Below, in pieces: positions 20,221 to 22,808 of a stretch of DNA of 64,000 nt (within the stretch, counting starts at the first letter, position 1; each line of letters begins with the position of its first letter). The stretch comes from Desulfurobacterium sp. TC5-1. Its GTDB lineage: Bacteria > Aquificota > Aquificia > Desulfurobacteriales > Desulfurobacteriaceae. The position numbers and the translations under genes are program-made. A model generated the notes under the pieces. That model made no database searches. It was not told where the DNA came from and saw nothing but the letters and a program-made list of their open reading frames with translations. The stretch lies in NCBI RefSeq assembly GCF_000421485.1, contig NZ_ATXC01000002.1, forward strand, positions 1 to 64,000. The letters are read 5' to 3'.

Positions 20221-21003
20221 TTAAATACCAAGAACATCAAACATAGTGTAAAGACCTGCCGGTCTTCCAAAAACCCACTTTGCAGCAACAACAGCACCTT
20301 TAGCAAAAGTCTCTCTGCTTGTGGCTCTGTGGGTTAGCTCTATCCTCTCGCCGGGTGTGGCAAAAAAGACCGTATGGTCTCCAACTACATCTCCCATTCT
20401 GGCTGCAAGGATACCTATCTCTTCGGGTTTTCTCTCTCCGACAAAACCTTTCCTGCCGTAAACAGCAACATCTTCAAGGTTTCTACCAACTGCCTCTGCT
20501 ATAACTTCAGCGAGCCTCATAGCAGTACCTGAAGGGGCATCTTTTTTAAACCTGTGGTGAATTTCAAATATCTCTATATCGTAGCCCTTATCCTTCAAGA
20601 CCCTTGCAACTTCACCAACAATTTTAAAGAGTATGTTCACACCAAGACTCATGTTTGGCGAAAAAACTACAGGAACGTTCCGGGCAATTCTTTCTATCTC
20701 TTTAACCTCTTCTGGCTTAAATCCCGTCGTTCCTATGACAAGTGCAACATTATTCTTTTCAGCTTCTTTCAAAAGTCCGAGAGTCGCAGGCGGAACGGTG
20801 AAGTCTATTACAACATCAGGTTTTTTATCAACTTCCGACAGGGATGAAACAAAACTTAACTTTTCGTCAAAAGGTTTTCCTATAAGTGGCGAATCTGGCT
20901 TCTCAAGAACTCCAACAAGCTCCATACCATCTTCAGCCTTAACAAGAGAAGAGATAAGCCTTCCCATTCTACCATTAGCACCATTAACAGCAACTTTTAC
21001 CAT
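20221..21003 (-). CDS. dapB: 4-hydroxy-tetrahydrodipicolinate reductase
   Basis: The protein has 260 residues. The Rossmann motif GANGRMG is at 8-14. The catalytic E-I-H-H-R-F-K and K-D-A-P-S-G-T-A segments are intact. It reduces the DapA product with NAD(P)H in lysine/diaminopimelate synthesis. An in-frame TTG precedes at 21006, but ATG at 21003 is well placed after GAGAGGTGA. It overlaps the stop of the globin-sensor gene by one base (TGATG). Confidence 0.96.
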   Translation of the reverse strand: MVKVAVNGANGRMGRLISSLVKAEDGMELVGVLEKPDSPLIGKPFDEKLSFVSSLSEVDKKPDVVIDFTVPPATLGLLKEAEKNNVALVIGTTGFKPEEVKEIERIARNVPVVFSPNMSLGVNILFKIVGEVARVLKDKGYDIEIFEIHHRFKKDAPSGTAMRLAEVIAEAVGRNLEDVAVYGRKGFVGERKPEEIGILAARMGDVVGDHTVFFATPGERIELTHRATSRETFAKGAVVAAKWVFGRPAGLYTMFDVLGI

Positions 21004-21935
21004 CAATCACCTCTCTTATACTCAAACCATTTAACAATACCGAAAACAATGCCCAAAATAAGGATTAACGCACCTATACCGAGCTTAAAAGAAACAGGTT
21101 TTGTATGTTCAAGAGAAAGAACAAGAGCCTCCCTGATGGTTGCAGCAAGCGCCACGCTAACGAACGCACTAACTGCAAGCTCTCCACCCATCATAAACTT
21201 TATCTCACTGTTGAGGAGCTCAAGAACAGTCCACAAGATAAGCAGATCACCAAGAGCAGATATCAGACCGTGAGAAAGATCTCCATGGAAGAAATGGGCG
21301 ACATCCATAACAAAGAGACCTGCCACCACAATGCCAAGAACCATCAAACCCAAAATAATTGCAACATCCATAACAAAGGCAAACTTTTTCGTAAACCTTA
21401 TAACAAACTTTTCGGCGGGATCTGCCTCAATGAACGTTCTCATTTCATGATCTATATAGAAAGAGAGCATAACAGAAAGGTGGAGGTCAAGAAGTTTTGA
21501 GAGAGAGCGGGTGTATTCCTCTATAAGAGTACACCCCTCACCTTTCTGTTCAACAAGCACCTTAACAATTCTCTTGGTGCAAAACCGTCTCACAAAATTC
21601 ATCATAGCTACGATAAGATTTGTAGGAATTCCAAGGTCAGCGTGAATCTTGGCAATTCTCAGTATGTAAGTAAGATACTCTGAATCATACTTACCAGAAA
21701 AGAGCTGCTCATACCAGTGAATAAGTTCATCCCTTATCTTTTTTAAATCATCTTCCGAAATGTATTTTGAAGCCTCATCATACTTTAAAAGCTGATTGGA
21801 AAAAGCCTCTGCAAATTCATCCTTAAAAGAGATAAGCATATGACCGATCTCTTTAAGGTTATCGACATCTTTTTTCCGAAACTCAAACTGATAGAGGAGA
21901 CGCTCCATATCTGCGTAACTTATCTGAACACCCAT
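21003..21935 (-). CDS. globin-coupled sensor domain fused to PsiE-like membrane domain
   Basis: The protein has 310 residues. Residues 1-165 look like a protoglobin/globin-coupled sensor domain. The F-helix region R-I-A-K-I-H-A-D-L-G-I-P matches the family pattern and supplies the proximal heme histidine, H98. The C-terminal 125 residues contain about four membrane spans. The region DLLILWTVLELLNSEI and V-A-L-A-A-T-I-R-E resembles PsiE, the phosphate-starvation-inducible membrane family. Expected behaviour is heme-based O2, NO or CO sensing linked to a membrane output of unknown activity. It lies between dapA (0-nt gap) and dapB (1-nt overlap), so it is co-expressed with lysine synthesis. Confidence 0.75.
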   Translation of the reverse strand: MGVQISYADMERLLYQFEFRKKDVDNLKEIGHMLISFKDEFAEAFSNQLLKYDEASKYISEDDLKKIRDELIHWYEQLFSGKYDSEYLTYILRIAKIHADLGIPTNLIVAMMNFVRRFCTKRIVKVLVEQKGEGCTLIEEYTRSLSKLLDLHLSVMLSFYIDHEMRTFIEADPAEKFVIRFTKKFAFVMDVAIILGLMVLGIVVAGLFVMDVAHFFHGDLSHGLISALGDLLILWTVLELLNSEIKFMMGGELAVSAFVSVALAATIREALVLSLEHTKPVSFKLGIGALILILGIVFGIVKWFEYKRGD

Positions 21936-22808
21936 TTAGAGCACCCCCTTCTCTTTCAGCATTTTCCTTATAATCTCCTCTTTCTCTGGCGTTGTCGGGC
22001 ACAGAGGCAACCTAAACTCTTTTTCCATCCTTCCCATCATTGAAAGCGCCGTTTTAACGGGAATAGGATTTGTATCAATAAACATCGTCTTATGCAGAGG
22101 ATAAAGATATAGATGAAGCCTTCTTGCCTCATCAATATCACCTTTTACAAAGGCTCTATACATTTTCACCATTCTGTCTGGAACAATGTTTGCCGTAACA
22201 GAAATCACACCTTTCCCGCCAACGGCAAGCAACGGATAAAACGTAAGATCATCACCTGATAGAACCTCTATCTTATCACCACAAAGGTTAACAATTTCGG
22301 TTGCGACATTCGTACTTCCAGTAGCCTCTTTAATTGCAACAATGTTTTCCATAACTGACAACCTTGCAACCGTTTCCGGAAGCATGTTAACACCGGTTCT
22401 ACCAGGAACGTTGTATAGAACAATGGGGATATCCACGGCTTCAGCAATTGCCTTAAAATGACGGTAAAGACCTTCCTGACTGGGCTTATTGTAGTAAGGT
22501 GTAATGAGGAGTGCTCCATCAGCACCTGCTTCTTTTGCGTAAGCTGTAAGTTCTATCGCTTCCTTGGTAGAGTTGGAACCTGTACCAGCTATAACTTTAG
22601 CTCTCCCTCTTACCTGGTCAATTGTAATAGCTATAACCTCTTCGTGCTCTTCATAGGAAAGAGTGGCGGACTCCCCTGTCGTTCCACAGGGAACGATGCC
22701 GTTCACACCGCCTTCTATAAGAAACTCTATATGCTCCCTCAACGCCCTTTCATCAACCCTTCCATCTTTAAAAGGGGTTGGTATGGCAACATGTATTCCT
22801 TCAAACAT
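21936..22808 (-). CDS. dapA: 4-hydroxy-tetrahydrodipicolinate synthase
   Basis: The protein has 290 residues, the standard length. The Schiff-base lysine K160 (ENIVAIKEATG), the catalytic tyrosine Y132 (LYNVPGRTG) and the CGTTGES loop near 41-47 are intact. It condenses pyruvate with aspartate semialdehyde, the committed lysine/diaminopimelate step. It is the first gene of the six-gene minus-strand operon. GGAGG precedes the start. It is divergent from thrC, which takes the other aspartate branch. Confidence 0.97.
   Translation of the reverse strand: MFEGIHVAIPTPFKDGRVDERALREHIEFLIEGGVNGIVPCGTTGESATLSYEEHEEVIAITIDQVRGRAKVIAGTGSNSTKEAIELTAYAKEAGADGALLITPYYNKPSQEGLYRHFKAIAEAVDIPIVLYNVPGRTGVNMLPETVARLSVMENIVAIKEATGSTNVATEIVNLCGDKIEVLSGDDLTFYPLLAVGGKGVISVTANIVPDRMVKMYRAFVKGDIDEARRLHLYLYPLHKTMFIDTNPIPVKTALSMMGRMEKEFRLPLCPTTPEKEEIIRKMLKEKGVL

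Follow-up and report, generated by a model that had tools for sequence, protein, structure and literature searches.

A protoglobin-PsiE fusion encoded between dapA and dapB in Desulfurobacterium, probably a membrane-anchored sensor of the GsGCS type

Introduction

Between dapA and dapB of Desulfurobacterium sp. TC5-1 lies a gene whose product seems to join a globin to a membrane domain. What would such a protein sense, to what would it pass the signal, and does its place among genes of diaminopimelate synthesis have any bearing on its role? The original prediction, made from the letters of the window (the whole stretch of 64,000 nucleotides that we analysed), was a heme sensor with a membrane protein as output, co-expressed with the dap genes, perhaps with an undescribed response to O2, NO or CO tied to cell-wall or phosphate status; the architecture itself might already have been catalogued.

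To our knowledge, PsiE has no known activity. GsGCS is a globin-coupled sensor whose output domain is described as transmembrane and without a known function. The structure of its globin (PDB 2w31) was reported by Pesce et al. in 2009 (as cited in PMC4476040).

Results

The gene is packed between dapA and dapB

We firstly give the features of the locus:

21003..21935, minus strand: protoglobin-PsiE fusion gene, 310 aa (open reading frame, Pfam matches and orthologues)
21936..22808, minus strand: dapA, 290 aa, immediately upstream
20221..21003, minus strand: dapB, immediately downstream
21943..21950, minus strand: ribosome-binding-like AAGGGGGT, within the tail of dapA and 7 bases before the ATG (motif read by eye)

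The gene, called gcs below, had been predicted without a strand. It is on the minus strand, with its start ATG at 21935 and its TGA stop codon at 21005-21003, and comprises 310 codons. Since 19 genomes of its family have orthologues, it is not a chance open reading frame. The tight packing that had been noticed is indeed there: the stop codon of dapA (21938-21936) is flush with the ATG of gcs, with a gap of 0 bases, and the stop codon of gcs has one base in common with the ATG of dapB (21003). Such packing supports co-transcription of gcs with dapA and dapB.

The protein joins a protoglobin fold to a four-helix PsiE domain

Three parts were delimited in the protein:

21441..21914, minus strand: Protoglobin domain, residues 8-165 (PF11563, E 1.3e-20; AlphaFold2 model; Foldseek matches to 5ohe, 5ohf and 2w31)
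21384..21428, minus strand: helical linker, residues 170-184, from the globin H helix to TM1 (AlphaFold2 helices 135-169 and 173-217)
21027..21359, minus strand: PsiE domain, residues 193-303 (PF06146, E 1.3e-16)

Both profile searches confirmed the domains that had been proposed, with scores far above the curated Pfam cut-offs (74 bits against 25 for Protoglobin, 61.3 bits against 23.9 for PsiE). When the sequence was searched against the PDB, the best match was the globin of Geobacter sulfurreducens GsGCS, 2w31 (E 1.4e-13). Two further matches were 7o0i, which carries an anti-anti-sigma factor annotation (E 1.3e-8), and the AfGcHK globin 5ohe (E 1.2e-7). An AlphaFold2 model was built on a 41-sequence alignment (mean pLDDT 79, pTM 0.51); with such a pTM, the placement of the globin half relative to the PsiE half is uncertain. 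By Foldseek, the N-terminal half of this model matches the heme-bound sensor domains of AfGcHK and GsGCS with TM scores of 0.86-0.89 (target length) and an rmsd of 2.0, as expected for the proposed globin fold. The protein thus has the parts of a globin-coupled sensor, that is, an N-terminal protoglobin fold with a histidine at F8 and a C-terminal output domain, PsiE, attached by a helical linker. AfGcHK shares the sensor fold and the proximal histidine (His99 in AfGcHK), but its output is a histidine kinase, whereas here it is a membrane domain.

Hydropathy and the model agree on four hydrophobic helices after the globin (about 188-211, 222-243, 253-274 and 283-304), in line with the four or so spans first counted, and together with the above-cut-off PF06146 match they place the C-terminal half in the PsiE family. 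From the even number of spans, both termini are predicted to be cytoplasmic. In the model there is almost no break between helices 135-169 and 173-217, so that the globin H helix would lead via a short linker into TM1.

The PsiE half modelled alone reached a pLDDT of 82, and this model had no match at E<=0.001 either in the PDB or in a viral model library. Structural matches to GPCR and Orai proteins were rejected as ordinary helix bundles. With the PsiE sequence profile only chance matches were obtained in the PDB, as was also the case in an NCBIfam search, and a PADLOC search gave no match.

The architecture is widespread and of the GsGCS class

In a sample of 41 Aquificota, whose domain structure was taken from the alignment, 30 carry the full-length fusion, five (all of one genus) the PsiE part only, and six neither. 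A genome scan also found the fusion in Nitrospirae, in Muproteobacteria and in three archaeal genomes of Hydrothermarchaeota/Pyrohabitans. In samples whose phylum labels are those of their centre records, it is present in about 49 of 395 genomes around a Desulfobacterales record (about 12%, Desulfobacterota), in about 49 of 198 around a Nitrospirae record (about 25%, Nitrospirota) and in 2 of 299 around a Muproteobacteria record. Homologues with the Protoglobin and PsiE layout match the window protein from end to end.

One of these relatives, L162, has 300 aa and is composed of Protoglobin and PsiE according to Pfam. Its residues 4-159 are 64% identical to the 2w31 globin, and from these two facts we assign the class to that of GsGCS; the window protein shares this layout of two domains and the size of about 300 aa. 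The architecture is therefore common in several phyla and not new: the suggestion that it might be undescribed did not survive, since it is widespread and its class includes the solved Geobacter globin. In the open-access literature we found no paper that names protoglobin and PsiE together; it seems that the name of the output domain, rather than the architecture, has been little discussed.

The three Hydrothermarchaeota copies (L085, L087 and L088) have a histidine at B10 and lie near Aquificaceae sequences in the tree, which suggests transfer between domains. In addition, a protein from a record titled Gammaproteobacteria MAG 128 (L069, QOAS01000125.1) falls within an Aquificota clade, the sister family f5 described below; the label or the binning of this MAG is probably wrong.

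The proximal histidine is kept but the distal pocket is altered

Two codons of the heme pocket are considered here:

21642..21644, minus strand: H98, the proximal heme histidine position F8 (aligned to H93 of 2w31)
21798..21800, minus strand: S46, at B10, which is Tyr in most homologues (alignment to 5ohe and column counts)

The histidine of the RIAKIH motif had been proposed as the heme ligand, and it does align with His93(F8) of 2w31. The F8 position is His in 96 of the 105 aligned sequences, and H98 is kept in all the sequences of the window's family that we examined; W74, Y87, G102 and N113 are kept as well. A ferrochelatase is encoded in the window's own genome, so heme should be available. 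Judged from these residues, binding of heme by the window globin is likely.

The distal side differs from both solved relatives. GsGCS has a Tyr at B10, as does AfGcHK (Tyr45), and Tyr45 of AfGcHK is important for O2 recognition (PMC8697598); the window protein has Ser46 there and lacks the distal Tyr of O2-sensing globin-coupled sensors. In its two congeners the residue is Phe and Leu, and the Tyr is retained in the other genera of the family. The near-invariant His-Tyr pair that follows helix F, in the FG region, is replaced by Asn-Leu (N106 and L107). GsGCS is in addition bis-histidyl through His66(E11), where the window protein has Leu71; as E11 is His in only 10 of the 105 aligned sequences, this residue does not define the class. 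From this pocket, tight binding of O2 as in AfGcHK appears unlikely, and NO, CO or redox state are possible inputs. With the B10 Tyr and the FG pair replaced in the window's genus, the handling of ligands may have changed or disappeared.

A sister family, f5, is joined to the window's family (f1) with full support in the tree, and in all six of its protoglobin-PsiE proteins (L066-L071) F8 is Phe, for example in the sequence ERFVDVG of L070. Heme may thus be dispensable in this clade. We considered heme deficiency as the origin of the histidine loss and rejected it, because all seven f5 genomes encode a ferrochelatase. AhbD of the alternative heme synthesis (TIGR04545) had no match above the cut-off, which we count neither for nor against heme. 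The Pfam globin match is still strong despite the Phe in both f5 proteins tested (L066 and L071). Elsewhere, a protoglobin-PsiE protein (L048:3557-4447) has a Tyr at F8, which is His in its close relatives; possibly a single lineage is giving up or replacing its heme ligand here.

These changes bring in another reading, in which the globin of the window's genus is becoming heme-independent: the fold and H98 would be kept, gas sensing would be gone, and the domain would serve PsiE for dimerisation or protein docking, by analogy with the heme-free globins of the RsbR type. The loss of the B10 Tyr in three species of the genus and of the F8 His in a sister family that makes heme speak for it, whereas the conservation of H98 in the examined members of the family and the retention of the four other residues speak against it. 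The behaviour of the PsiE half bears on it too.

PsiE is the better conserved half and can stand alone

Two charged residues lie within the membrane helices:

21219..21221, minus strand: Glu239, TM2 (invariant, 104/104; Glu also in E. coli PsiE)
21132..21134, minus strand: Arg268, TM3 (invariant, 104/104; Arg also in E. coli PsiE)

The 104 sequences are those that reach these positions. A profile comparison with E. coli PsiE (b4030) gave E 9.4e-5 with an hhalign probability of 59% and put the TM2 Glu and the TM3 Arg in register, but the E. coli protein stands alone without a globin. In nearly all clades the globin is less conserved than PsiE. The globin-to-PsiE distance ratio is 2.2-3.9 in f1 and f5, where the globin thus outpaces PsiE two- to fourfold in its evolution, and 0.9-1.3 among members of the two remaining Aquificota families. 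Most of genus g11 has lost the globin and retains PsiE, and in two loci (L099:4983-5783 and L102:4605-5405) PsiE follows a shortened, degenerate globin without an F helix; these two may be steps from the complete fusion to a lone PsiE. PsiE, being more conserved, carrying the invariant Glu and Arg and persisting without the globin, is the likely output and able to stand alone.

The fast globin and its decay or absence in these loci add to the case for a heme-independent module, but a high ratio, 4.0, is also seen in the GsGCS-like clade, and there the globin does bind heme (2w31). We consider this reading of the window protein a serious rival, though a doubtful one. Its wider form is a little more doubtful again. 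Here an ancestral heme sensor would have become a heme-independent membrane regulator that retains the PsiE output, both in the Desulfurobacteriaceae-like family and in the sister family of the latter; one line would have lost the tyrosine that holds O2, the other the proximal histidine. If true, it would be a second, membrane-bound case of heme loss by a globin, like RsbR, and the window protein would be an intermediate.

The same data bear on a chemical role at the membrane, such as scavenging of NO or O2 or storage or transfer of heme, in which the heme protein would have PsiE as a plain anchor. Protoglobins do bind gases and a four-helix anchor would be sufficient; however, a mere anchor does not fit with PsiE being the better conserved half, with in-membrane charges common to stand-alone PsiE, nor with its persistence without the globin, and no reductase partner is adjacent. 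We find this role improbable.

Several f1 and f5 genomes also have a second protoglobin, which lacks PsiE and whose open frame spans about 200-230 aa (G007:C1:121765-122199, G016:C35:169-612 and G132:C71:23412-23855).

The dap position is confined to one family

The order dapA-gcs-dapB is found in 9 of the 10 loci of the window's family (Desulfurobacteriaceae), and in the tenth (L038:4659-6537) dapA is separated from gcs by two extra genes, of 422 and 206 aa. In other families and phyla the neighbours are unrelated. We observed purH-gcs-purD in six Nitrospirota loci, ndk-gcs-rlmN in five Desulfobacterota loci, secA and a gene for an AAA protein beside gcs in six Hydrogenothermaceae loci, hypD-gcs in four loci, and cysS and ubiD in three each. 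In an Aquificaceae locus (L049), gcs lies about 5 kb from a member of the dapA family, which we regard as a coincidence. What the neighbourhoods share is housekeeping expression and no pathway.

The tightly packed order shared across genera of the family would agree with a sensor of gas or redox state that is dedicated to the synthesis of diaminopimelate or the cell wall and targets DapA and DapB or their expression. However, the order of the whole dap block is conserved, thrC, hisZ and purA included, and there is no evident route from a four-TM protein to two soluble enzymes. The unrelated neighbours outside the family remove the main support for such a role, which we hold to be very unlikely; the dap position seems to be an accident of gene order. 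The survey thus leaves the proposed tie to cell-wall synthesis unsupported. The suggested link to phosphate status came solely from the name of the E. coli relative: E. coli psiE is induced by phosphate starvation and controlled by PhoB and CRP (PMC4415409), and this regulation says nothing on the window gene.

Discussion

We propose that the protein is probably a membrane-anchored globin-coupled sensor of the GsGCS type, which would switch PsiE via the helix that enters TM1, with an uncertain ligand. Of the original prediction, the heme-type sensor with a membrane output, co-transcribed with the dap genes as judged by the packing, is retained, and its being undescribed and the cell-wall and phosphate roles are not. 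The proposal builds on the domains, the conserved histidine, the predicted fold, the continuity of the helices, the conserved charges, the spread of the fusion and its variable neighbourhoods; from these we infer the heme binding, the dimerisation, the coupling through the helix and any output, as follows.

The cytoplasmic protoglobin would hold heme at H98 and would dimerise, probably through its G and H helices, like other globin-coupled sensors. A change at the heme, either a gas ligand or the redox state of the iron, would shift the H-helix bundle, and this movement would pass along the nearly continuous helix into TM1 of the four-helix PsiE domain, where it would alter the arrangement around the in-membrane Glu239 and Arg268. 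Most likely PsiE would then act as a membrane effector, a small permeation path or a protein-binding switch, rather than as an enzyme; this output is a guess, since the domain has no significant match to any solved structure. The position between dapA and dapB would provide steady housekeeping expression without a specific functional link.

The presence of gcs in at least seven unrelated housekeeping neighbourhoods makes operon position a poor guide to its function. Among close relatives the heme residues are lost by degrees while PsiE stays unchanged, and these natural mutants allow input and output to be told apart. Finally, as the globin would be switchable with CO, NO or redox, this widespread fusion of a sensor with PsiE may offer a way into the function of PsiE.
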